Source: Metellina segmentata | Lineage: Eukaryota > Arthropoda > Arachnida > Araneae > Tetragnathidae | Length of the DNA: 64,000 bases | Reading direction: 5' to 3' | Assembly (NCBI GenBank): GCA_947359465.1 | Contig: OX375874.1 | Location: 94,249,172-94,313,171 of the forward strand | In this document: positions 14,966 to 63,918 of the stretch, piece by piece | How the letters are laid out: each line of letters starts with the position of its first letter | How positions within the stretch are numbered: position 1 is the stretch's first letter | Notes under the pieces: generated by a model | The model's database searches: none | Told to the model about the DNA's origin: nothing | Seen by the model: the letters and a program-made list of their open reading frames with translations, nothing else | Made by a program: the position numbers and the translations under genes

Positions 14966-17090
14966 ACTTTCCGGATGACCCAATATAAAAATTGATGTGT
15001 GAATGTATGCATGTTCCAGCATAACTCTGGAACGCCTGGAGTAATATGAACCAAATTTGGAACACATATGACTTACTATCAGAGAAAAAGTAATGTGGGG
15101 GGTATGACACCACTAGTGGTGGAGTTTGAAGTGGGTGACATGTAAACATAATCAAAAACAACCGATATTAGTATCGAATCCATAGTTTTCGTGGTCGTTT
15201 AGATGAATAGTGACACTCCCGATACCGTATAAGTCCATATTCAGCTCCTTTCAGCATGGGAGGTGAGAAGGGGTAAAAATTACATTGTCCAAAATGACCG
15301 AGATTAGTGTCGAATCCATAGTTTTCGTGGTCGCTATGGTGATAGGTGACAGTCCCATGATAACATTTTATAGTCGAATATACTCTGTTATATACTATAG
15401 TTTTATACTCTGTGAACCTTCTGGAAATTCATCATTTGTAAATATCTCCTACTTTATTACAATTGAATGAAATTCAAAATGATCTACCGCATTTTGGATA
15501 AATATTTAAATAGAAATATAAGTGTTTGGTTCTATAATGCAAGACATTGGTATCCCAGGGAACGAAACGGTTGACGATTTACCAGTTGACAAGACCTGCG
15601 TGAGGAAATATAAATTATATAACCTTCGTTCATGCACCAAGTCTTTCTTTCAGTGCACCGAGTATTAAAAAAAGAGTCAGTCTCTAAACATCTCATCCTA
15701 CAATGAATGTCAGTAGCCAAGAAATCTTTTACCACTCTACAATAGCTGGAAAATTATTTTTGCACGAACTTCATGTGTTGGTGTTGAACTTATCTAGCAC
15801 AATGGGATAAGTACCAACCAACCAAAATGCACAACTATACGAATTTCTATAAATTTGAATATTCAACACTTGGGTAGACATGCTTTCAATATCAACTCTT
15901 TAAAAACTCAAACTCTCTCGTTCAATCGTTATTAACATTTAAAATTCGAAATCATACCTTGCTTGAATGAATTTAATTGATCAAAATTTTAATATACATA
16001 TGTATGAAGTAGATAAACTGTCTGAAACAGCAAAACTCCGACCTCTGAGCTCTGGGGAAAGAGATTTGAACAGCTTGTTCTGTCCGAAATTTCTAGTTCA
16101 TCCCACTATTTTCAGCTCTCAGTCTTATCTCCATTGTGGAAATTAAATTCAATATAGAACATTTCACAGGAGAGGTCAATTTTTAATCAGACTTTAATCA
16201 ATACAAGACGTTAAAAGCTTTCACGAGCACAGCTATCGGAAGAGAATATTAGCAGGTGTAACAGATAAACCTCGAAAAACTGTTTGACGACGCAACAAAA
16301 CTGCTGAGAGAAGAGAGTTGAGTGTTAGTTTGCTTGAAGCATCAAAAACTTTCGGGTAAAGATGGGTTGTAAAGCTTTCTTATAAAACAGAATATGATCC
16401 ATTCAAAACAGTCTGGGAGTAGTTTCGTTCTCTAAACTAACAAAAATCAATACAAATATTTCTAAGAGCAAGATATTTCAAAATAAGAAACCTCTTATAA
16501 AAAAATATTAAAATACGAGCTTACGTTAGCTCTATATATTCCGTAAAAATGGTTTGCATTCGGAAAACAACTCTAAAACTACATTTTCAATTTCATTTTT
16601 GGAACACTTCTTTTCTAGCGATTCTTATCTGCTTTAAATGTTCAAGAAAAAAGCTTCGGGTGAATTGAAATTATTACTTGCCCGATTAAGTAAAGTTTCG
16701 TCTTTTTTGGTGGAATCGAAAAACCTCACATGAGAAAGTGTTAAATAACATATACATATCGTAAGTAACTGGAAACAATCAGCGAAATTGAAGTTTAGCG
16801 TTGGAAATTTAAAAATCTAATTTGATATTTATTGGAATTCTGAGCATTTTGTTTTTAAATTTTGATTTTGGTGTTTTTACTCAACAGTTTCATGTATGAA
16901 CTAGAAACATTGAATTTCAAGAGTTCAGATCAATCTATATAACTAATACTTATAATGCAATCAATGCTAAGAGCATCTTTATTTGCTTTATTTAACCTGC
17001 TTTGTTTTGTACCTTTGACAACTTTTAATTGGGAACTCAAGCATTTGAAATTTAATTTAGTGTTCTATTTCATACTAATGGAATGATTTT
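14966..17090. other. Repeat-derived intergenic DNA, no gene
   Basis: 15005-15145 carries ATGTTCCAGCATAACTCTGG, the pattern of an interspersed repeat end. 15161-15222 and 15297-15358 are direct repeats sharing TCGAATCCATAGTTTTCGTGG. Nothing was recognised from 15360 to 17090. Confidence 0.4.
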
Positions 17091-17095
17091 TGTTC

Positions 17096-17398
17096 CAGAT
17101 AATGGTAAGACCAACTTCAACAGTGTGGAGTTATTACACATCAGAGTTTTTCCATGGCAATAAAAAGACTGCTAAATTCAGGTATTGCAACAAGAAGTAT
17201 CTGGTACCAAATGCTACTAAGATGGCAAAGTATTTAAAAAAAGGCGTTAAAAAACCCCAAATAATGTCTTTCCCTATATATTCTTTGGCAAATGCCGATG
17301 AACCTTCAGTTATTGTGGGATGCCAAGAGGTGATAACGGACTTTGAAACTATGTATATGGATCCAGGACTATCAGAATCTACAAGTAGATCCTCTTAA
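17096..17398 (+). pseudogene. hAT-type BED zinc-finger fragment
   Basis: After an acceptor-like TTGTTCCAG, an open frame reads MVRPTSTVWSYYTSEFF, then KFRYCNKKYLVPNATKM, then AKYLKKG. This matches the BED finger that starts many hAT transposases. However, the first Cys of the C-x-x-C pair is Phe, and the His and Cys of the closing H-x3-C are Tyr and Gly. Zinc binding is therefore predicted to be lost. The frame stops after 102 residues and no catalytic domain follows. Confidence 0.6.
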
Positions 17399-17779
17399 TA
17401 TTGCGTTGTTTTTTTCAGCTATTAATCCCTCATTAAAAGCTTACAAGTGCCGGTGCCAAATTGAATCATCAGTAAAGTAGAGAGTAAATTGTAACTGCTT
17501 TATATAAAGATAATATGAAATGTTTACAAAAGTATTGTTTTTGATGCAAACATTCATCTTATTTTTTGCTGCTAGGTCTCGGAACAAAACCATCACATCA
17601 ACATTCATCTGGATTTGAATATAAATGCTGATGTTGTTTATACAATAAAAATAAAGCGATATTTTCCACCAAAAAAGAAAATTTAAATTTTATTGAAACA
17701 ATTTTCCAGGTTGTAGTTTTATATATATGGGATTTTCTCTTTATAGTTTAACTTAGCATCAAACCAAAAGAAGCCACAA

Positions 17780-17915
17780 AATGTGAAAAAATGGTTGGTT
17801 TAGTTTATTCCCAATGTTCCCCAAAGTTCCGGGTTTATTCCCCAAAATTCCCGTGTTTATTCCCCTCTTCCAAAATTCCCGGGTTTTTTGCATCACTAGT
17901 TCCAACACACAAACG
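17780..17915. repeat. Repeated TTCCC/GGGTTT motif block, probable hAT end
   Basis: Four imperfect copies of TTCCCAAAGTTCCGGGTTTA-like sequence end in GGGTTTTTTGCATCACTAG. This resembles subterminal repeats of hAT elements and may be the 3' end of the element whose BED fragment is at 17096. Confidence 0.4.
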
Positions 17916-17922
17916 CAAGATA

Positions 17923-19169
17923 CACTACCCTACAATAATGACCGGACGTCAGAAGATTTGTATAAAATCCGACTGCATGTCGAATTTTATGCAAATCCAG
18001 TGCTCGCACGTGACCTGTTAATGTTAAATACGACATGCGAAGTGCTAACGTCGTTAGTTCTGTGTGAAATTGTGACAATATGTCGAAACTAAAGGAACTC
18101 AGTGACTTTCAAGGAGGGGTTATAGTTTGTTGTCACATTAGTGGCAAGTCTATTCGCGCAATTGCGGTAGAATTATCACAGCCTTGGTCAACTGTTGGTG
18201 ATGTCGTGAAGAAGTGAAGGACTACGGGAGTTGGGACACGAACTACACACGTCGTCCTCGTAAAACTGACAGAACAGGATAGGCCTGTCCTGAAGCGTGA
18301 GGTTCGTAAAAACCGCAAGAAACCGCTCCGAATCATCAAGAGTGAGTTTCAACAGGCAGCAGGGGCTGCGGTGTACCCCAATACTTTGAGGAAAAAATTG
18401 CACGCCCTCAATATCCACGGATGTGTTGCCTCACACAAACCAAACATCACCTCATCCAACAAAGCCGGCAGACTCGCTTGGTGTTTGCAACGTCGGAACT
18501 GGACTATGGACCACTTGAAAACTGTTTTATGGAGCGACGAGTCACGCTACACTCTCTTCCAGTTGGATGAGTGCGCTTGGATTTGGCGAATGCCAGACGA
18601 ACGTCTGTTACCCGAGTGCATCGTTCCATCTGTCAAGCTTGGTGGTGATGGTGTACTTGTTTTGTTTTTTTCGTGCTATGGCCTGGGATCTTTGTATGTT
18701 GTTCCTGGTAAATTGAACCCTGACACCTCCATGAACATTTTGGACAATCAAGTTCTTCTTACGCTCTGGAAATTTTATGGAAATGACAAACTTTACTTTC
18801 AGGTCGACAACGCTCCATGTCAGGTTGCAGCCTCTGTCAAGTAGTGGTTTCAAGATATGGTTGTAAAACGTCCTCCCTGGCCTGCTCAGAACCCCGACCT
18901 AAACCGCATAGAATATTTGTGGGACGCGTTAGAGCGACGCTTACGGACCATGGAACCATGTCCGAAATCTACAGCTGAGCTGGCGGCATTCTTGCAGTAG
19001 GAATGGACACAAATATCCATAGCTGTGTATCAAAACCTTGTTGAAAGTATGCCCAGAAGGGTTGTTAGTGTAAATTGCACCATGTGGGGGACCATCCCCC
19101 TTTTAAAGCATGTATTATTTCCCTTATACCATCACATCTTGTTGTCCGGTCCATTAATGCAGGGTAGTG
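17923..19169 (+). mobile_element. Near-complete Tc1-like transposon
   Basis: Inverted repeats CACTACCCTACAATAATGAC (left) and the complement ending CAGGGTAGTG (right, with 1-2 differences) bound a 1247-bp element. TA target duplications are at 17921-17922 and 19170-19171. It carries one transposase frame. It sits just beyond the RNase H end of the chimeric gypsy fragment. Confidence 0.9.
18080..19100 (+). pseudogene. Tc1 transposase with three nonsense codons and no frameshift
   Basis: One frame runs from ATG 18080 to the right end. It has an N-terminal helix-turn-helix (SGKSIRAIAVELSQPWSTV), then WSDESRYTLF, VDNAPCQ and PDLNRIEYLWD. The second Asp and the Glu are 34 residues apart (DD34E). 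Only nonsense codons break the frame: TGA at 18215, TAG at 18842 and TAG at 18998. Each is explained by a single C-to-T change from CGA or CAG, so the copy is young. Confidence 0.9.
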
Positions 19170-19212
19170 TATGAAAGAATATCTATTGTATATTACACCA
19201 TCAGAAATCTTA

Positions 19213-19475
19213 CTAATTTTCCTCATACATTCGGGATAAAGTATCAGCAATAGTGTTAGATTTATCCTGGTTTGTGAGCAATTGACATCTGGAAACGAGA
19301 GAGAGAGCCAGAGACCACCTCTGTAATCGGGCATTCTTCGGAATTCCCTCAGTCGAAAATTTCAAAGGGTTATGGTCAGTATACAAGAACACAGGAGTTC
19401 CATAAGTCCAAACTTCGAATATTCCAAGAGCCCATACTACGGCATATATGCCAATTTCTCTCTCTCTAGTGCCAA
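19213..19475 (-). pseudogene. gypsy RNase H fragment
   Basis: The minus frame EREIGIYAVVWALGIFEVW, then TDHNPLKF, RLQRWSLAL and KSNTIADTLSRMYEEN is the C-terminal half of a Ty3/gypsy RNase H. It is fused in frame to the end of the kinase segment. The TDHNPL catalytic region is kept. Integrase should follow, but 44 bases later the Tc1 at 17923-19169 begins. Confidence 0.85.
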
Positions 19476-22396
19476 TTTTGTTTGAGCAACTGTCAGTTTT
19501 TGACTTTTTCACTGTATTCAGTTGCGTGTAGTCTCGGGAGGCAAGCACATTGACGTTTTCGTCGTGGACGAGGCTGTCGTCGACCAATGTCTTATATTTT
19601 GGTTTGTCGACAGAGGAGGTCAGTTTGGCCTCTGAACTTAAGGAGCCCACGGATGAATCCCAAGAGATGTTGTCATTGTCTGTGACCTGTCTCGATGCTG
19701 AGATACTGGTCATTGCTTCTACAGGGAGCATCCTCGCTGTAATCTTACGCCGGTTACACACACGGCGGATTTTTACGAACGGCGGAATTTTTCGAAATAA
19801 ACACGTTTATTCGATAGAATATCTATCGCAAATGGCGCGAAATGAGTACTTGCGTCATTTCACGGTTATGTGTGCATAGTTGGGCTTCGGTGCCGCAGCG
19901 GCGCCGCACGTTGAAAAATTGGCTGTGTGCACCGGGCATTAGGTTTCGCAGCTACCGGAGGAAGTTTCTTCTAAATGACCAAAGCTGGTGCAACTGTACT
20001 GAAACAAACTGCGCCGAAAAGGTCCTGGTTTAACTTGCGACGAATGATGCCACTGCTGGATGGATGAGGAATCGGAGCGAGAGAACACGACAGGGGTAGA
20101 AGCTGCTACCCGTTTCTGGTATGTAATGACTACATTACTGACTTGAGCGGGTCCGGGCATTGGTTGGGAAGCTTCAGTGGCTGAAAACACAAATCTGCTA
20201 TTTCAGTGAAGGGAGCTGATCCAAACAAGTCTGTGGGATGATCGGTGACGTCGAGTCGACGTCACGAGTGTAGTACAGAAACTTTTATTACAAGGAGTAT
20301 ACTTCAAGCATGGTAAACTTTTCAAAAGCAGTTTCAATGTTTGAAACGATATCCGCTAAAAAGATTCCGTGAGCGCTTCCGAAACTCTCCGAACTACGAG
20401 GCACGTCCGCTCCTTCGACAAGAACGTCTATCTTCTTTTTCAGCGAAATTTTGAAGCTATCCTTCTGCACCTTGAAAGAGTTCTTGAAAGGCACCTGTGC
20501 AAAAACATCGCCTTCCTTAATCTCTTCGCACAGCAGAGGGGCTTTTCCTAGATTCGAATAGCCACTCAAGCGTTTGAAGGGAGCGGCACCAAACGCGTCA
20601 AGACTTCGGGGATTTTCAATGGGTGAAGCGGGAGGCGTGATAGATGCCATGGGAGATACAATAGACGACGAATTTCTATCCTTTTTGCTGCCTGTCAGGA
20701 TAGTTTCATTCTGATTCTGGTCTGATTTCTCATCGAGTAACGGTCGAACACCCTCGGTGTTGCCAAGAAAGACATCTGGAATACTATGTTCAATGACGGG
20801 AGATTTCTTACTCTTTTCAGTTCTAAACTCAGCAGCACTCGAACTCTTGTCAATAGGAATACTGTCTTTAACACCCTGGCCTCATTATCAGAAGCTGACT
20901 AGCCCTCTTCTACGATGAAGTCGACTCTTTCTCGTAGATCGTTAGCTGAACCTATCGAATCGCTATCCTCCTATACTGCGGGAAACTCCAAAGTACTAGC
21001 AGTACAATTCACACCCGGGGATTAGCGTAAGGAACTTTCTACGCAGAGCTATTTACATCGACAATCTCTAAAGGAGATTTCATTTCAAAATCAATGTTCA
21101 AATGCTTCACATATTTAGAGCTATCTTCAGCGGGTGTTCTGGTAAACGAAGCTGTGAACAAATCTTTCTCAGAACGGCTACTGTGCAAACTTTGACTGCC
21201 TTCATGAGAAGCACTGGAATTCTCACTACTATGTCTGTGCCTCACTTGCAGCTCTATATTGCTTTCTTCTGAGTATAAAGGTGCATAGCTTGTAATATCA
21301 TGATCCAGTAGATCAGAAGATGCTAAGGGCAGTTGATTGGGTCGTGAAGGGCAGACTCATATATTCATTTTAGGAGGACCACCTAAGTTAAATGGAGCAG
21401 CACCAAATAGATCAGGTTCTGTCAACTCCGATGTACTCATGACTAGACTTTCGCGGCTTTTTACATTAGATATACTACTCTGAGAGCCACGTCGGATTTT
21501 ATCGAATTCCTGTCCAAAAATTTTGGTACTCAGTCAAGTTAGAAACAGCCGTTGTGCTAACAAAGGGGTTCCATTCAGATAAATCACTTAGATGCTTTTG
21601 CTTAGAGGTTGCTATTGATGGTTCATCAGTGGCTACAACAATATGATTCTAGGATGTTTCATATGGAGATAGGGTATAATTTCTCTTTTGCAACATTTTT
21701 ATCGAAGGCAGATGTATCACACGCATTTCTCCTGTGGTGGCTGTGTTGACTCGCATGGGAGACAGAGGTGGAGTCACCGAGATTATGTTGTGAGGCGAAA
21801 TCTCTGGGACGAGCGCCACGACCAGGTAGCTCCGGTACTCGTCAGAAGCAGGTGGCTGGATAATGCAGACCATATGCTGAGGTGTTGGCATGACAACTGA
21901 TTCTAGAGTGGGCAAATCTGTGGCAGAGGACTTACGATGAGTGACTAGCTGAGAGGCATCTGGTAACGACATCACTGCCGCTGCATGAGCTGTAGTAGGC
22001 TTTTTGCAGTTGTAGGTGTGGCTTGGGGTAGGAGGGTCAAACTTCCAACACTGGGAGGAGCTTGGGAACCCTTAGGTCGTTGACGAGTAGCCACTGAATT
22101 TCCTTCTCTACAGGAGTAGAGGCAGGCTTTTGCTGTTTGGCAGTTTATTTCTTAGCTTGAGTTCCAGTTTGAGGAGATGGTAATTTTTCAAGTTCTGGAA
22201 TGGGTGAGTTTTTTAAATTTGGTACAGGACTTTCTTTACCGGCTGCTTTGAAAGTAACAAAAGAAACTCGATATATATCTGATCTTTTCTAAGGTACTAC
22301 TTCTAGCATATACCTGATTAAGGAATGAATACTTTTAGAATAACTGGAGTTAGTTGGAATGTTAAAATTTCCACCTTATAGCTAAAGCACTTTCAC
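19475..22396 (-). pseudogene. Captured AAK1/BMP2K-like (Numb-associated kinase) segment, intronless
   Basis: Begins in the kinase C-lobe: GESALAI-like, NFNIPTNSSYSKSIHSLIRY, MLE, then SDIYRVSFVTFK. The conserved post-kinase linker SPVPNLKNSPIPE follows at about 22199-22250, then an RQRPKGSQ block. Downstream are VTPPLSP, SEWNPF, a FDKIRRGSQSS block, and DLFGAAPF / DAFGAAPF / DVFAQVPF motifs typical of AAK1/BMP2K tails. These kinases phosphorylate the AP2 mu subunit in endocytosis. Several frameshifts and stops occur, but no introns over nearly 3 kb, which points to an mRNA origin. A 191-bp MITE interrupts it at 19748. The source gene is not in this window. Confidence 0.82.
19748..19938. mobile_element. 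PIF/Harbinger-like MITE, 191 bp
   Basis: Ends CGCCGGTTACACACA and (complement of right end) TGCCCGGTGCACACA form inverted repeats. TTA is duplicated at 19745-19747 and 19939-19941. A 3-bp TTA/TWA duplication is the PIF/Harbinger habit. It is inserted in the captured kinase segment, so it is younger than the chimera. Confidence 0.65.
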
Positions 22397-23180
22397 GTAG
22401 TAGATACTATATAAAACTGTCTAATGTTATCAAAGGTCTCCTCACGTTTCAGTCTCAATATAACAGGATCTGGTATTTGTTCTGAAAAGCGCATCACTTC
22501 TTCAGAATATATGTAGCAGAAAATAACAGCATTTCACATTTTTTGCACAGTTGCTTGTGTATGCGTATTGATTGGTATTCATATCCTTGAGTGGATACCA
22601 TCACATCTGCTTCATCCAAGACAAACACTTCAATTTTCTTTAGGTCAAAGAACTTATGACTTATCAAAAACTTTACCTGGAGTTCCAACCAAAAATTTTC
22701 TTTAATTTCGTGACCTTTCTCAAGATGCTCGCCTAGAATTGCAAACCGAATACAGATATTAGGGCAAAATTATGCCATCTTTTGAGTCACATTTCTTGTT
22801 TGTATTGCAAGTTCATACGTAGTGAAAGAGCAAGCATATGAGGGCATTTTAAATTTGGGTTAACTCGTGACAGCGAAACCAATTCAAATGCTGCAGTCTT
22901 GCCTGTTCCTCTTTGAGACTGGACAACTATGTTTATTGGAGGATGGGTAATCAAAAGCGGTATGACAGTTTCTTGAATTTTTGAGGCTGGTTGAACCCTA
23001 TTGTATAGACCCCTTTCAGCAACTCGGGGCGAAAATTGAGCTCTTCAAATGATCTAGCCGAATGCAATGGAGAGTTTGGGTTGTTTCGTATTGTTTCAAT
23101 TCCACTTGCTACCTGAACCAACTGAGTTCGGAAAATTTTTTGTAGTGGGGACAATTCGGCTGCATTTACTTCTTCAGAGT
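22397..23180 (-). pseudogene. Captured DDX19 fragment
   Basis: Corresponds to 35172-35973 of the intact DDX19 gene (residues about 56-321: N-terminal extension, Q motif, Walker A region, DEAD box, SAT motif). At 22575-22658 only two bases differ over 84. Elsewhere identity is about 90%. Small indels (for example the shortened stretch at about 22660-22670), stops and loss of exact motifs make it non-functional. Parent exon 1 covers the whole region, so the fragment alone cannot show whether it came from RNA or DNA. Confidence 0.9.
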
Positions 23181-23946
23181 TCCGTTTGGTCTTGAGACTA
23201 AAACCACAGGAGCTGCTGCTGCATAGGGTGATTCGCATTCTTCAAAAAAATCTTTTTCGAGTAAATCATCGTAGTTCTTTTCTTAACATTTCCTTTTTCC
23301 TAGTAATAATCGATATGGTGGAACTCCTAATGGTGGATGATTATTTGTGTTGATGTGGTGTTTGATGAAAGGTAGTGTCGTACTCTTCCAGTAAAGAATT
23401 GAGCTCGTCTCTGGTCTACTAGCAAGTGTTGACCTTCTTCTTGGCGTAGCAAACAAGAGTTCATGTAGATAATTTTCACATCCATCGAAGCTGTTGCACC
23501 TGCTTCTTTCACAAAACAGAAATTCTTAACTGGATCGTCATTGAAACGCCAGGAATTTTCTTTTAAATTCAAGACGATTCCTGCATTTTGGAGGCTTCTA
23601 GCAGAGTCCTGTTTCCTATAGCTGTGGGTAATGCCATTAACGTAGTTTGAAATTTTCGACCTTCGAGTTCGATGGTCACACAGGTCGTTCTGGCTTTCAC
23701 TTGTTTTCAGACCATCCATAAGGGATATGGTGAGATGGGTTTTCTGGAAAGTTACTCCATTTCCTTGTAATATCCGATACATAATCTCTTCTGCAATGGA
23801 ATGGCTCGCTCCACTGTCTGCAACTGCTGTATCCGATATATCATTGACCGATACCCGAGAACAGCAAATTATTTCGGAGACAATAAAAAGGAATGCAGCT
23901 GGACACTATTCAAGTTGACAAACTTTAGCTCCAGATGTGCAGATTG
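23181..23946 (-). pseudogene. gypsy protease and N-terminal reverse transcriptase
   Basis: The protease reads TAVADSGASHSIAEE, then a GNGVTFQKTHLTISL block and FLQNAGIVLNLKEN (with one shift), which is a retropepsin fold with DSG active site. The linker and RT start follow: FIKHHINTNNHPPLGVPPYR, one stop, then DDLLEKDFFEECESPYA and PVVLVSRPNGTL. This matches the start of the gypsy RT palm. The next RT residues are replaced by DDX19. Upstream of the protease is CTICTSGAKVCQLE, possibly the end of gag/pol spacer sequence. Confidence 0.82.
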
Positions 23947-23976
23947 TACATTGGGACTTGATGAGTAAAGGTGAAC

Positions 23977-24513
23977 TAGAGTGCCTATATAATGAGTGGC
24001 GACAAGGGACCAAATTTGGCCCATTGCGCATGCGCGGCAGCCATTTTTCTACCAGAATCATCTCAAAGAATGTTGCTGGGCGAATTAATCTATCATTTCA
24101 AGGAGAACAAAAAGCATATGATTGTTATATTATGTATATATTCGCTTTAAATGAATCATATAAACGCTCAATTACATGCGTAATTGATGAGATGGATTGC
24201 ACACGCGCTAACTTAGATTGCGGGAAACACCATGCTGTTCAAAAAACAGCTATTTACTTAAAAAGTCTTCAAATTTATACTGACAAAACACTAAAATAAT
24301 AATAAATAAACATTCTAGAACACGAAATGGAACATGAATAAGCTATGTTTTCTTTTTAATTTAATATACACACGTTTTTCTCGAACACACAAAAAGTTCA
24401 CATGTTAAGTCTACGGGAGCTAGGAAAAGACTGCATCCGGCGGTAGAAAAGGTATCTAAGCCAATCAGAAAGTGTTTCCCGTATGTCGCCACTCTTATTA
24501 TATAGGCACTCTA
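23977..24513. mobile_element. 537-bp TIR element with 8-bp target duplication
   Basis: Inverted repeats TAGAGTGCCTATATAATGAG and complement TAGAGTGCCTATATAATAAG bound the element. AGGTGAAC is duplicated at 23969-23976 and 24514-24521. The 8-bp duplication fits hAT or P superfamilies. A 120-codon open frame (23937-24299, plus) spans much of it, with a CVIDEMDCTRANLDCGKHH stretch near its end. I do not recognise it. The element is inserted near the gypsy protease side of the chimera. Confidence 0.8.
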
Positions 24514-25720
24514 AGGTGAACAAATGTCAATGTCATGTTGACTGTGCTGCCCTCTATTGAGGAAGTGAGATATTAATCACATCATTGCTACAAAGCTATG
24601 AAGCAACACACACACTGTTGAGTTATCTTTTATTCTAGTGTTTATAATAAAACACATTTTTTTGACAGTTCAATTTTTACTGATGATGCAGTTAATGTTT
24701 TCATTCATTCGCAAACCAAATTATTTTTTCTGAACTGTGGTTTGCTTCGCAAACTAACACCACGGGCAACGCCGTAATGGCCTCGTCATTGTCAAATCCG
24801 TCGAAATTTTCAATCGATATTTTCCGATACCGATTTTACAAAATAGAACTGAACAATGCCAGTCAAAACATATTTTATTTGTTTTGCTTTTCTACGCTGT
24901 GGAATGGTTTGAACGTAGGAAATTAAATCTGTGATTTCTCGAATCAAACGAAGGTCCTCCGCGTATAGGATAAAATATAAAAGTTTCAATTTAAAAATTA
25001 TTAATTTAAGGAAAATCATATTTTAAGGTATCGATTTAATGTTAAATTTTCCGCGGATTTCAAATCCGTTGAAATTTTTACTCTATATTTAACGATTTAG
25101 AAGATAGAAAAAAGAACTATATAACTAAATTTAAAACTATTTGTTTTTTAGTCTCCTGACAAATCGTTCCTCCGTAAAATCAAAAGGAAGCGGTTGAAAT
25201 AAATTCAGAATCTGCCATCTCTTTATGCTATAGCCATTCTAAAGAAAACAATAATTTAAATTCATTTTAAAATGTTCTAGATTGAATTTTAAAATTTGGC
25301 GCGACCAAAAAATTCGGACTACCTGCGTGCCAAATCCCATTACTGTAAGTGTCATAGATTCGTCAGGACTTTATGCGCAGAAAACAGACAAACATTTCCT
25401 TTTGTAACCGATTGTTTTAGGAAGGATTAATAATAAACTATTTATCACATTGTCAAGTCAGAAATTGAAAGTATTTCATCAATTTAGAATTAAATACAGT
25501 GTAAAGAGGAACAATGTTTTAGCTTTTTACCATGCACCAGTCATGAGAATGCAAAATTTTAAAAAATTGGAAAACCAAAATGTGAAATTAAATACACGCG
25601 AGTCCGGTCTGTGTGCACAGGATTTTGCAACAGTAAAAATTAAAATTAACAACTCGTGCATGCTTGAGGAACAATTTGTACACTATGGAGTTGGTGAGCA
25701 ATGGGCGGATCCCCCTAGTA
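24514..25720. other. Repeat-derived DNA; includes copy of the 12.2-kb repeat
   Basis: 24735-25420 carries GTGGTTTGCTTCGCAAACTA and AATTCGGACTACCTGCGTGC...ATAGATTCGTCAGGAC, which match the repeat at 12173-12565. The open frame at 25450-25749 has no recognisable family and runs into the hAT below. Confidence 0.5.
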
Positions 25721-27317
25721 CAGGGGTCGGCAACCTGCGGCTCTTTTGATGTAAAGTTGCGGCTCTCCAGTTCCATACGAAAAAATTAATAATTTATCAT
25801 CAAAACCCTTAAAAAATAAGAAAATATATTTTTAAATACCTAATTTCTCAATAGCCTATACTTTCATAATCGTTAATTACAAATATCTACGCTTAACATG
25901 ACAGTAATGAGATAAATTTGAACTATGGTTTTGTTCTTAGAGATGAGACTCCGTGACCATGTTTATCTTTCAGCCAATTGCATTCCATTTTCGTCTCACC
26001 CAAACAGCGTCTAGAGTCTAGACAACACGTCTAGATGATGAGATGGTGAGTGCGTCAAAGATTGTTTTATACGTGCATCTGAAGAACTGTTTCGTAATTT
26101 TAAAAACAAAGCAGAAATTATGAAAAAAATCAAAGATTTGCCATTATTTGCTAAAACAGTACAAGATAGAACTGCTAAAATGTCTTCAAATGTACCACAT
26201 ATGCAAGTGGAAGACATTCAACTGGCCTTTGTCTTATCACTTGCTATAGATGAGTCTTGCGACATAAAAGACACGGCACAAGTTACCCTTTTCGTCAGGT
26301 ATCTGTCGTCCCAAGATCCAAAAGAAGAATTGCTAGGAGTGCTACCGCTCTCAGGGCAAACTCGTGGAGAAGAAATAGCAAATGCTGTGCAAAAATGCCT
26401 GGAAGACAATGGAATAGATATAAATAAAATCGTTTTTATAGCAACGTTTATGTGATGGAGCCAGAAGTATGAAAGGAATACATAGAGGGGTAACATCAAT
26501 TCTTCAGAAAAAAATAAACCACGAAATTCTAACGTTTCACTGCATAATTCATCAAGATAAGCACAAAGCAAAACATTGCAATACGTTGAGTGAAATAAAT
26601 ACATTCTTCAATGAAAAAAAGCATTGACCATCCCGAACTGGAAGAAGACAAATGGCTGCAAAAATTCAACTTTATGGTAGATACCACAATGAAACTAAAT
26701 AATCTAAATCTAAAACTGCAAGGAAAGTGCAAACCAGCCTACGCCTTGCTTGAAGAAGTAGTTTGTTTCGAAAAAAAAATTACTTATTTGTGTTGAAGAC
26801 ATGGAGAGCGGTAAATTACTTCATTTTAAAACTCTGAAGCAATATCACGATGAGACCAATGCAACTATTGACACGAATTACTTCAGCATAGCTTTAAAAA
26901 ACATGAAGGATGGATTCGCTGAGAGATTCGAGCAATTCAAAACAAACAATAGTACTCTCACGTTCATAATAAATCCTCTCAACACAATTACAAATGAGAG
27001 AAACATTGAGCCATTTGGAATTGATGCTGGATCGCTTCAAATGCAATTGCAAGATTTGAAAACCAAAGACTTGTGGAGTGGCAAGTTCACAGAACTCAAG
27101 AGCAAGTTAGAAGAGTTGGAGGTCCAGAAATGCATGCACATCGCGCTTCACAAGTGGACAGCTCTAAAAGAAATTCCGCGAGTTGAGGCCCGCATATTCG
27201 GCGCATGGAATAGTCTTCCAGAATGCTACAGTGAGGTGAAAGTGGCTCTTTAAAAACTGGGAAATTTTGTAAATTGGAACTTTTGGCCCTTCCATTTCAA
27301 TAGGTTGCCGACCCCTG
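25721..27317 (+). mobile_element. hAT transposon with 8-bp target duplication
   Basis: Ends CAGGGGTCGGCAACCT and (complement) CAGGGGTCGGCAACCT are identical over 16 bases. CCCTAGTA is duplicated at 25713-25720 and 27318-27325. The element is 1597 bp, shorter than autonomous hATs of 2.5-4 kb. It carries a broken transposase. Confidence 0.93.
26120..27253 (+). pseudogene. hAT transposase (Charlie/GTF2IRD2-like), broken
   Basis: Plus-strand frames read [15 protein letters not shown] (hAT catalytic strand with Asp), [18 protein letters not shown], then DGARSMKGIHRGVTSI after a frameshift at about 26455, and FHCIIHQDKHKAK. Later frames 26611-26796 and 26801-27253 carry FKTLKQYHDE and NYFSIALKNMKDGFAERFEQ, as in the GTF2IRD2/SCAND3 type of hAT. 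Stops and frameshifts separate four frames. The BED finger and the C-terminal dimerisation motif are missing. Confidence 0.85.
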
Positions 27318-32699: not shown

Positions 32700-35600
32700 C
32701 TATCTTTTTGCCATTTTCTCCAAATCATCAATCTCATTAGCATCTACTTTTATAATAGCTTTGCCAAAATGTTGTTCTATTTGTTTAAGAATATTCATTG
32801 TCTTGTTACCATCAACCAAATTAATGGCAAGGCCAGATTTTCCAAATCTGCCTGTTCTTCCAATGCGATGTAGATATGTTTCACAGTCCGCTTCATAATT
32901 TTGGTTCATTGGCAAATCAAAGTTTATTACTACTGTAACCTGTTCTACATCTATTCCCCGAGCACAAACATTAGTTGTAATGAGAACCTGCAAGAGAAAA
33001 TAGATAAATTACAAACACTAAACATTATTTTTCCACTTCCCTTAAACCATTCAGTTGAATATCAAAGTAAAAAAAAAAAACGCAGTTATTTGTCATAAAT
33101 CTATTATACAATACATGTGTGCAAAATAAACTTTTGATAGTTCCACCCGTTATGCAATAAATAGTAAGTATTTGAAAAATGAGGGCTTTTTAATCTATGA
33201 TGTAACAATGAAATTCACTTTGTATCTTCTTAACATTACTTAACAAAATTAATTAGTATGCTAGATTCGCATTATGACAACCCTGAGGAAGACCTTTGCT
33301 CCAGTGAGGTTATATAAAATATAATTAGTCAGATATCAAACATTCCCCTGAAGGTTTTCTAGAAATGAAAAGGAATGTCAATTTTCACAGCTCAAATTTT
33401 CTTTATTTCAAAAGAAAAAAAAACCTGTTGTTTGAGAAACTATCAGTAATGAACTATAAGAGATATTTAATGAAAAAATTATGTAATAAACATAAGAGTT
33501 CCGAAATGCTTATAATATATAAGAAACAAGAGGTGTTTTACTTGGGCCCACAATAATGTCTTGAAGTTGGTGCTATTGCATCCCAATCCATACAACATTC
33601 CACCCTTCGGTCTTTCAAAGTAAAATCAGTTATCTTCATTAAAAAATGGTCACACTTCAGATCTTACCGAGTGTGTATGGCAGCCTTCTTTCCTAACAAG
33701 GTTTCACACCTTTTCATAGAGCATCTGACCCAATGTCTATTGCCGTCTCGTAGGTTAGGTTTATGATGCAAGCCCTTTTGTAGGAGCTACACTATAAGAA
33801 AGAACTGTTGGGGCCTTCTCAATTGGTCGTTATATCACAGCGCATCGTTCAATTGAGGGTCGTTGTAAAGCAAGTGTACTGTATTACAAGCTGAACAATC
33901 AACTCAGGTACAAGATGAACGAATGAAATTTTGTTTTATAAAACCTGGACCTTGTTTAAGTGTCCTGCATAAGGATTTGTGTTGTCCAGGCCCAGTTTGA
34001 TAGGCAAAAAAGATCTCTGAAAGGCAACTACTAATGAGAAAAGTGATTGGTCTGAGATAGTCATTAGGTTTAACGAATAAATCTCAATCACTAGATTAAG
34101 TACATTCATACCTATTTTACATGATATGGTTATATTAAATGCATTTCACTAGAGTACTCAACTAAAGCTAAAGAAAAGGTATATAACATTTGTCTTTGAA
34201 TTGTGATAATTTTTTTAAACAATTTAGTGGGGGAGGGGGGATCAAAACATTTTAGCAACATGAACCTAAGTAACTTGGATTCCTAAGGCCATTCTGTATA
34301 ATTGACTGTTTTTAAACTATTTTAGACATAAATTTACATTACAAAGTTTTAGAATCCCCAATTACATCAAGCTTTTTAATGGGCACTACATGTGTTATTA
34401 AGAAGATCTTTTTTGGCTTTTAGATTTTTATGTAAATATAACTAAATATCTAGTGTATTCAACTATTACACAAAAAATAACATTTTTTTTTATTAAATGA
34501 TACTTCTGTCTTTTGACTTGAGAATCTAGATCAAGATAAAATTATTAATGTAACTGACAGAGTTCACCTTTTAAGCTTTAAAACCAAGGTCCTTTACAGC
34601 TACTTTTCAATTTTTAAATGTAAATTCAATATAAATCGCAACAGATTAGTTTGTGAGTGCACAGGTGAACAAACTTTCAAGAGATGGATCAGATTAATTT
34701 TCAATAAAACATGTATAGAACCCTTGATTTTTTTTGACACTTGACCTTGTACAAGAACACTAATCTCATTTTTGAATGCACATGAAATAGGTTAGGCAGT
34801 ACAATAAAATCTATTTTTAATTAGCTTGATTTTAAATAGATTAGTTTGTAAAATCTAAAATGAAATATCCTGCTTTTTTCAGTCATGTGGGAACCCCATA
34901 TTCGATATGCACTAGAAAATACAAATAAAAGGGATGGAAATGAAAATGGAACGAAACATACCTTTTCTTTTCCTTCTCTGAATCTGTTTAATACAGAAAT
35001 CCTTTGGTCAACTGTAAGGTCTCCAGAGAGAAGAGCAACATCATGACCTTCTTTTGCCATTTTTTCTGCCAGCCATGCAGCTGTTTTTCTCATATGACAG
35101 AAAATCATAGCCTGGCCAATTGAAAAAGTTCCATATATGTTACAAAGAGCTTCAAATTTTTCCTCTTGTGTAGTAGATACTATATAAAACTGTCTAATGT
35201 TATCCAAGGACTCTTCTTCTCGTTTCAGTCTCAATATAACAGGATCTGATATGATTTGTTCTGAAAACCGCATCACTTCTTCAGAATATGTAGCAGAAAA
35301 TAATAGCATTTGACATTTTTTGGACAGTTGCTTGTGTATGCGTATCGATTGGTCTTCATATCCTTGAGTGGATACCATCACATCTGCTTCATCTAAGACA
35401 AACACTTCAATTTTCTTTAGGTCAAAGAACTTATATTTCATTGCCCAGTCAAAAACTTTACCTGGAGTTCCAATCAAAAAATTTTCTGTAATTTTGTGAC
35501 CTTTCTCAAGATGCTCACCTCGGATTGCAAACCGAATACGGATATTAGGGCAAAACTGTGCCATCTTTTGAGCCACATTTCCTGTTTGTATTGCAAGTTC

Positions 35601-36131
35601 GTACGTAGGTGAAAGAACAAGCACATGAGGGAATTTTAAATTTGGGTTGACTCGTGACAGCGAAGCCAGTACAAAAGCTGCTGTCTTGCCTGTTCCGCTT
35701 TGAGACTGGGCAATCATGTTCATTGGAGGATCGGCAATCAGAAGCGGTAGGGCAGTTTCTTGAATTTTCGATGGCTGATTGAATCCCATAGCATAGACCC
35801 CTTTGAGCAACTCGGGACGCAAATTGAGCTCTTCAAACGATTTAGCCGAATACAATGGAGAGTTTGGGTTGTTTCGTATTGTTTCAATTTCACTTGATAC
35901 CTGAACCAACTGAGTTCTCAAAAATTTTTGCATTAGGGACAATTCGGCTGCATTCACTTCTTCAGAGTCGTCTGTTGTATCTGCTGGTTTGGGCTCATAC
36001 TGAGCAGCAGGGACAGGTGGAGGAATTGGAGGCGCATCATCCGTGTTGAGATTAGATACAGCACTAATGCGAGCTCTTTCTTGAAGGTCAGCACTCAGAC
36101 CCCAGTCATCAGTAGAAGAAGCCATGTTCAT
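32700..36131 (-). CDS. DDX19: DDX19/DBP5-type ATP-dependent RNA helicase
   Basis: Two exons, 34962-36131 (390 codons) and 32700-32987 (95 codons plus stop), joined by a 1974-bp GT-AG intron in phase 0. The protein is 485 aa against about 478 for vertebrate DDX19. Motifs: [11 protein letters not shown]-motif (115-124), [11 protein letters not shown]alker A (141-150), PTYELA (175-180, with the Tyr typical of DDX19), GTPGK, DEAD (247-250), SAT (279-281), [30 protein letters not shown] (395-403) and [10 protein letters not shown] (430-439). DBP5 is activated by Gle1 with IP6 at the cytoplasmic face of the nuclear pore, where it releases export factors from mRNA. Translation could also begin at the Met codon two residues later (MASST). 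The gene looks intact. Reading past the exon 1 donor gives a false 436-aa frame. Confidence 0.97.
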
Positions 36132-36499: not shown

Positions 36500-37284
36500 C
36501 AGGGTGGCAACAAAATCCTTGAAAAAAAGTTCCCTGATATTTCCATGATAGCCTCAAAAAAATTTCCATGATTTAACAATTCCCGTAAGAAATGTAGTGA
36601 TCCGTGATTGGTATCAATATACAGTAACCACACAACACTATTTTTAAATATTTAGGGTCAGAGGGTGTAAAAGGATCATTCTCCACAAATATTTTGTATT
36701 TTTTCTCTACAGATATTTTAATTGTTATTGTAAGGGATGGAACCCTTAATGGAACTCTTATAATTGCAATTGAAAAAGATGGAGAAAAAACGCAAAATAT
36801 TTTGATTATGAACTTTTTACACCTGACCCTACATTATCATACTATTCATCAAAACCAACTGCAAATATACATAAAAAATTCTACAAAAATGTAACTGCAA
36901 ACAAAAATAACTAATCTAATACACAAAAAACATAATTAGTTACACAAATTTCAAATTGTATACCACCAGTTGTATCGCTAGCCTCACGGCGACTAAGACG
37001 CTGCGGCCGTGAAAAAAACGGCGAAGGCGGTTTTAGCGGTGTTTAAAAATTACGACGCCATGGTTCTTTATTCAAATTACAATTTCGGCAAATACGATTT
37101 ATTCGATTCTCAAAAGCACTCGTAACAGTGCATCTCTAAATAAGCGATAATGATAGCCGTTTAAGTTGTCAAAATTTCCCTGATTTTTTGTAAAGTTTGG
37201 ACATTATCAATGAGATTTTCCTGATTTTTCCAGAATTAAAAAGTTCCCTGATTTCCCGGTTTTCCAGGTTCTGTCACCACCCTG
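36500..37284. mobile_element. hAT-type MITE copy 1 (785 bp)
   Basis: Begins CAGGGTGGCAACAAAATCC and ends GTTCTGTCACCACCCTG. It matches the element at 61845-62535 along its length, including TATTTAGGGTCAG, CTCACGGCGAC(T)AAGACGCTGCGG and CCTGATTTTTCCAGAATTAA. The CAGGGTGG ends are hAT-like. No coding capacity. Confidence 0.8.

Positions 37285-46076: not shown

Positions 46077-63918
<17,842 letters not shown>

Follow-up and report, generated by a model that had tools for sequence, protein, structure and literature searches.

How did one stretch of spider DNA come to carry pieces of gypsy retroelements and of two unrelated host genes, all reading in the same direction? In the window, i.e., the whole 64,000-nucleotide stretch of Metellina segmentata DNA that was analyzed, the minus strand reads from a gypsy nucleocapsid, protease and reverse transcriptase (RT) start into DDX19, then into AAK1/NAK (a Numb-associated kinase) and finally into gypsy RNase H. 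This order on one strand had been proposed in a first-pass annotation and is confirmed at 23178-23963, 22397-23180, 19498-22396 and 19170-19505. The locus is most likely a decayed mosaic retro-insertion joined from four templates, namely two gypsy families and two host genes, and is interrupted by three later insertions (a 537-bp MITE, a Tc1-like element and a 192-bp MITE). The extent originally assigned to it, 19213..23946, is too short, as an LTR end is found at 24592 and extra gypsy B sequence continues down to 17899. In the direction of reading, the features are:

24514..24592, minus strand: first 79 nt of the gypsy A LTR (U3), starting at the LTR terminus TGTAGCAATG; 91-93% to seven kin loci (L037-L043)
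23977..24513, no strand: 537-bp MITE, a later insertion with an 8-bp target duplication AGGTGAAC and 20-nt inverted ends (95%), present in many copies
23957..23963, minus strand: join 0, LTR to gag nucleocapsid knuckle; common word CATCAAG (7 nt), found in the L040 LTR and in the L004 and L006 nucleocapsid
23178..23963, minus strand: gypsy family A, nucleocapsid knuckle, protease and RT start; 73-86% to L004-L007 in matched stretches
23178..23180, minus strand: join 1, gypsy A to DDX19; common word ACT (3 nt), frame shifted
22397..23180, minus strand: DDX19 fragment, 784 nt, frameshifted; 714/801 columns identical to 35170-35968
22396..22397, minus strand: join 2, DDX19 to AAK1; 0 shared bases, frame shifted, in the interior of exons in both parents
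19498..22396, minus strand: AAK1/NAK fragment, end of the kinase C-lobe plus tail, nine exons spliced together by comparison with the parental gene
19747..19938, no strand: 192-bp MITE-like piece within the AAK1 part, a later insertion with TTA at both edges
19498..19505, minus strand: join 3, AAK1 to gypsy B; ~8-nt overlap AGTCAAAA (AGTCAGAA in L010 and L012), frame shifted
19170..19505, minus strand: gypsy family B, RNase H, by identity to B kin
17921..19171, plus strand: Tc1-like element splitting gypsy B, a later insertion at a TA target
17899..17922, minus strand: probable end of gypsy B (24 nt) on the far side of the Tc1-like element; L013 87.5% over 24 nt, L014 88.9% over 18 nt
16791..17898, no strand: left-truncated copy of a high-copy repeat, adjoining the 3' side of the mosaic

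The 537-bp MITE is presumably hAT-like, a label that we attach to it from its 8-bp duplication.

The AAK1 part is a spliced copy of an mRNA from a gene on another chromosome (parent on C5, mosaic on C2). The parental gene was matched over nine exons, and 8/8 of its GT-AG introns are absent from the copy, which bears out both that the kinase part is intronless and that a kinase gene with introns exists elsewhere. The parental splice reads open over 917 codons. Both ends of the piece are truncated within coding exons, and its 3' side passes straight into gypsy B. A LINE-made processed pseudogene was considered for this part and rejected, as there is no poly(A) end and AAK1 stops inside a coding exon, directly at gypsy B. 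A protein search with the AAK1 tail gave 140 candidates, 0 of them at E <= 0.001.

The DDX19 part has its donor on the same strand, 12 kb away, where two coding exons of the host gene are found:

34959..36116, minus strand: long host DDX19 coding exon, open throughout, the donor
32709..32990, minus strand: next coding exon of host DDX19

The fragment lies entirely within one exon of the sole close DDX19 match, so that DNA, pre-mRNA and mRNA are indistinguishable as its source; the span holds 0 parental introns and their absence is uninformative there. An mRNA origin is plausible. The first-pass annotation had two host mRNAs captured and inserted in trans, which holds for AAK1, while the DDX19 piece fits DNA, pre-mRNA or mRNA alike and its gene lies in cis. 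The chance of a random insertion within 12 kb of either donor is 4 x 12 kb / 1.665 Gb, or ~3e-5. Segmental or tandem duplication of DDX19 was rejected, since a self-comparison of the window pairs both places over the DDX19 piece only, with no wider DNA. The closest relatives of the donor exon are found in Caerostris extrusa (76%) and Araneus ventricosus (74%), and a DDX19B-like entry of Argiope bruennichi shows 67% identity to it.

The mosaic pieces adjoin to the base, with neither foreign sequence nor a poly(A) run between them. Breakpoints in the host parts fall in exon interiors, never at splice sites, and a search at the host-gene joins for introns, a poly(A) run or signs of separate insertion found none. 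Microhomology at these joins amounts to 3, 0 and ~8 nt, i.e., two of the three carry shared words. The word ACT had been recognized correctly at the first of them. The last join had been placed at GAGAGAGA, but this GA run falls within the gypsy part; AAK1 homology extends to 19498 and gypsy homology to 19505 (L010, L012), with AGTCAAAA as the overlap. Nor do the pieces run codon-to-codon into one another, as the reading frame changes at 3/3 joins. No other copy of the chimera was found in the genome, and no further copy of either host part occurs among 3/3 and 8/8 first-look genome candidates, all of which were scored.

On both sides of the host parts, the same LTR element was sought and not found. 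To judge from sequence similarity, the right gypsy piece (A) and the left one (B) belong to different families: 5/6 A-B locus pairs have no blastn match and the sixth matches over 56 nt. Identity of the RNase H piece to B kin is 62-72% for four of them (L010-L013), 67% for L015, 41% for L014 and 35% for L016; among the A kin it is 27% (E 0.1) for L007, with no match in L004-L006. The earlier picture of one gypsy element with its RT replaced by host sequence is thus abandoned. A hybrid A-B family that could have served as frame was also rejected: among 38 other places of the A piece (46 rows, many of them 70-71% matches of ~160 nt to related families) and 39 of the B piece (41 rows), the nearest approach is 1.1 Mb, for the best 40 of 48 and 45 candidates scored. 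The probable continuation of gypsy B at 17899-17922 matches weakly by itself (L013 E 0.018, L014 E 0.78), but its position is the exact continuation of gypsy B in both loci. Beyond it, seven gypsy B kin give only scattered matches of 13-51 nt (E 0.005 or worse) to the left of the Tc1-like element.

Where LTRs are concerned, a terminus is present at the right end of the mosaic (24592). LTR similarity begins at TGTAGC in 7/7 kin, within 1 nt (6 nt in L037); three of the seven end in CATACTACA, with lengths of 264, 290 and 321 nt, and three (L037, L038, L042) have a 4-bp repeat of flanking bases. Past the MITE, LTR sequence resumes in 23957-23976, and the subsequent join to the nucleocapsid could equally well be a later deletion. 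Pieces of the seven kin were also run against the window in search of a second LTR; apart from the right end, they matched only through the protease piece of L040 and over two short stretches, 23 nt at 58.1 kb and 25 nt at 40.1 kb. A second LTR or target duplication is not visible because the left end is cut by the later repeat. In another gypsy A copy (L006/L040), an LTR contains 102 nt of that copy's protease in sense orientation (94% identity to the protease), with GAATTT at the entry point in LTR and protease alike. In our reading, products of the gypsy A family do show switch-like joins.

Divergence from the parental genes is equal in the two host parts. At codon positions 1 and 2, DDX19 differs at 35/523 (6.7%) and AAK1 at 137/1791 (7.6%; Fisher P = 0.51). 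Private differences amount to 36/461 (7.8%) in gypsy A and are fewer than in the host parts for gypsy B (5/143; 3.5%) and the LTR piece (2/62; 3.2%), the latter two being small counts from only those columns that agree among kin.

The spliced AAK1 and the four sense pieces are best explained by template switching during reverse transcription, as had been suggested, though not within one gypsy element. We consider it probable that this is one decayed mosaic made by RT template switching across at least four sense RNAs. Minus-strand synthesis would have copied gypsy B, spliced AAK1 mRNA, DDX19 RNA and gypsy A in this order, with the RT jumping inside each message and using short shared words at two of three joins. 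Presumably, one RT made all switches in a single event, DDX19 entered as RNA and the gypsy A machinery performed the integration, the product now beginning at the gypsy A LTR terminus. The switch onto DDX19 may have taken place in a virus-like particle, or in the nucleus at the target near DDX19. Counted against template switching are the cis DDX19 donor, the lack of a shared base at join 2, the lack of a demonstrable 3' LTR or target duplication, and the fewer private differences of gypsy B and the LTR piece. The donor at 12 kb is unexplained under particle-only models. One tentative possibility is that synthesis of the mosaic cDNA was completed in the nucleus at the insertion site, where the RT or a repair polymerase switched onto a nascent or chromatin-bound transcript of the neighbouring DDX19 gene. 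Among the readings considered, such capture at the target site predicts both that all parts lie in sense and that a donor lies no more than 12 kb away.

Alternatively, gypsy A may have resided near DDX19 and a break in its RT region may have been patched with DDX19 DNA copied from nearby, with cDNA of AAK1 and with a stretch of gypsy B, akin to class 2 templated sequence insertions or break-induced template switching. This directly accounts for the 12-kb donor. Class 2 insertions are described as showing microhomology but neither target duplication nor poly(A) (PMC5110952), and in yeast retrotransposon cDNA goes into breaks (PMC10802722). Nonetheless, chance alone would give all four pieces their single orientation in only 1 of 8 cases, DNA copied in from nearby would rarely fall entirely within a coding exon and in sense, and no greater age is measurable for gypsy A than for the host parts, although this last test is weak; we regard such repair as rather unlikely. 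Still less probable is that gypsy A, gypsy B, an AAK1 processed pseudogene and a DDX19 duplicate came to abut by accident. The region is indeed full of later insertions (MITEs, Tc1-like element), but the base-exact abutment, the truncation of AAK1 inside coding exons at both ends and the equal divergence of the host parts speak against independent nesting.

An assembly artefact is very improbable. The joins are known here from the assembled sequence alone, but the host pieces are 8.2% and 9.9% substituted relative to their parents and are therefore not parental DNA joined by mistake, the mosaic itself has received later transposons, and the whole lies within a 138-Mb contig. Least probable of all is a domesticated fusion gene: at present an open stretch of 197 codons connects the AAK1 tail with gypsy RNase H, yet the frame changes at every host-gene join, 10/11 indels in DDX19 and 21/27 in AAK1 are not multiples of three, and no second copy was found. 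The artefact was rejected on the divergence from the parents and the fusion gene on frames and indels.

A literature search on spider mosaics or nascent-transcript capture yielded nothing on point among the matches listed. Several known systems do resemble the mosaic. In LTR-mediated retroposition (Tan and coworkers, as reviewed in PMC5408686), host mRNAs of invertebrates and vertebrates are reported to be copied into LTR-retrotransposons at short similarities. Similarly, the AAK1 part is intronless and two joins show short similarity (3 and ~8 nt), but the mosaic has two gypsy families as flanks, two unrelated host genes in a row and a donor 12 kb away. Class 2 insertions (PMC5110952) and RNA-templated break repair (PMC12065846) share with it an RNA-derived patch, microhomology and the lack of poly(A) and of a visible target duplication; the mosaic differs in its LTR terminus and four joined sense pieces. 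As an animal case, it appears to record, in one insertion, switches among four unrelated templates, with base-level identification of both host parents. The cis donor raises a testable question: do retroelement-made mosaics take RNA from the neighbourhood of their target? Maize Bs1 is likewise a single LTR element with pieces of several, in its case three, unrelated host genes; it is described as giving rise to a chimeric gene that is transcribed and translated, whereas the mosaic is frameshifted, found once and has one LTR end (PMC13317346, PMC5408686). The complex LTR elements of Triticeae join two parental elements in one insertion by abnormal template switching, as here, but fuse retroelement sequences, whereas the mosaic holds two host genes between its retroelement parts (PMC1950507). 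The best explanation is that the mosaic is a relative of Bs1-type and complex-LTR insertions.

The window sits on contig C2 of the 1.665-Gb genome and carries a decayed minus-strand insertion, referred to here as the mosaic, in which pieces of two Ty3/gypsy families (gypsy A and gypsy B) are joined to fragments of two host genes. Its parts, its later insertions and the adjoining repeat are as follows.

79 nt starting from the LTR terminus at 24592, minus strand: gypsy LTR piece, 5'-most part of the mosaic
23963-23178, minus strand: gypsy A nucleocapsid knuckle, protease and RT start, by comparison with kin
23180-22397, minus strand: DDX19 fragment of 784 nt, between gypsy A and AAK1/NAK
22396-19498, minus strand: AAK1/NAK fragment, beginning within the kinase C-lobe and reaching the late tail
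19505-19170, minus strand: gypsy B RNase H, 3' part of the mosaic
Within the mosaic: later insertion of a 537-bp MITE, target duplication AGGTGAAC
Within the mosaic: later insertion of a 192-bp MITE-like piece
Within the mosaic: later insertion of a Tc1-like element
16791-17898: high-copy 1.1-kb repeat adjoining the 3' side, 91-96% identical to 39 kin listed

Another 24 nt of gypsy B probably lie on the far side of the Tc1-like element. The adjoining repeat is truncated here at its left end, beyond which all seven kin examined run on. A repeat roughly 600 nt long occupies 24792-25408, just right of the mosaic, and at least 39 other copies of it match at 75-82% identity. Open plus-strand stretches at 26042-27253 resemble a transposase-derived remnant; a Pfam search of 26042-26455 only gave no convincing match.

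The kinase part, which we take to be AAK1/NAK from its match to a human sequence, has one parent gene, on contig C5 (22625910-22639778), in which nine exons match in the same order. Each of the eight introns, which range from 84 to 2368 nt, can be given GT-AG boundaries, with the acceptor of the fourth ambiguous within about 12 nt, and all are missing from the copy. The spliced parent reads open for 917 codons, and both breakpoints fall within coding exons. No second copy of this part was found in the genome search (8/8 candidates scored). The kinase part of the mosaic is derived from RNA.

The DDX19 donor lies only 12 kb from its copy. The fragment matches window positions 35170-35968 (714 of 801 aligned columns identical), inside an open coding exon (34959-36116) on the same strand, one of two coding exons found for the gene. 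The parent is intronless over this stretch, so the source could be mRNA, pre-mRNA or DNA. The three genomic candidates, all scored, are the fragment itself, the nearby gene and a 63% match on contig C1. Solved DDX19B/DBP5 chains and named spider DDX19 proteins support the name. Among the latter the exon comes nearest to those of Caerostris extrusa (76%) and Araneus ventricosus (74%), and we treat the host as an orb-weaver-like spider on that ground. A random insertion would, by arithmetic, fall this near either donor in about 3 of 100,000 cases. A repeat pair (72% alike) occupies 36502-37284, just upstream of DDX19, and 61848-62535, near the window end.

The first-pass annotation had seen a single gypsy element around two captured host mRNAs; the flanks instead belong to two families. 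Two gypsy A kin run on beyond the first join, L004 as PKPNGTVRLCVDYRKLN and L005 alike, and in the gypsy B locus L011 the RNase H counterpart of the mosaic piece is preceded by KKDGTIR*CRDYKGLN (more damaged in L010). The mosaic RNase H is 62-72% identical to gypsy B kin L010-L013 and 67% over 46 aa, 41% and 35% to L015, L014 and L016, versus 27% (E 0.1) to gypsy A locus L007. Blastn at E 1e-3 left five of six A-B locus pairs unmatched and aligned 56 nt in the sixth. A hybrid A-B family was not found among the scored candidates (best 40 of 45 for the A piece, best 40 of 48 for the B piece), since the nearest A and B places, among the 38 and 39 listed with the mosaic excluded, are 1.1 Mb apart. 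Among the matches listed, six to the gypsy B RNase H fall within 0.4 Mb (C11:3.0-3.4 Mb of G000, the genome searched). The LTR piece meets the nucleocapsid knuckle at the word CATCAAG; gypsy A LTR and protease are assigned to one family because they adjoin in locus L006 (also L040).

The gypsy A/DDX19 join shares ACT, the DDX19/AAK1 join has no common word, and the AAK1/gypsy B join shares AGTCAAAA, which L010 and L012 carry with one mismatch. The join word proposed earlier, GAGAGAGA, proved to lie within gypsy B, where L011 has a similar run. All three joins alter the reading frame in the present-day sequence, so no fusion protein is apparent. Against their parents, DDX19 and AAK1 differ at 35/523 and 137/1791 of codon positions 1 and 2 (P = 0.51) and at 15/112 and 83/458 fourfold sites. 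Private differences in the gypsy A piece (36/461) are in line with the host parts, and those of gypsy B (5/143) and the LTR piece (2/62) are lower, on small counts. These data allow a single event for the whole mosaic and do not prove it.

Reverse transcription accounts for the spliced AAK1, the shared orientation of the parts and the breakpoints inside exons, with the enzyme presumably switching among unrelated packaged RNAs at short similarities. Such switching is described for LTR-mediated retroposition (PMC5408686), and the same route is proposed for complex LTR elements (PMC1950507). Gypsy A offers an independent, switch-like product: in L006 (C10:37.517 Mb) an LTR contains, at 959-1062, 102 nt of the locus's own protease in sense orientation, 94% identical to the protease at 1607-1708. 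Packaged-RNA switching does not explain the closeness of the DDX19 donor. Patch repair of a resident gypsy element near DDX19 (compare PMC5110952) accounts for that nearness but leaves orientation, exon content and the two gypsy families unexplained, and we consider it unlikely. A switch at the target onto the neighbouring DDX19 transcript would account for both proximity and orientation; we consider it unlikely as well. RNA has been reported as a repair template in human cells (PMC12065846).

The mosaic would work like a Bs1-type capture, Bs1 containing pieces of three host genes (PMC13317346). The mosaic differs from that type in one tested feature, namely that its flanks do not come from the same element.
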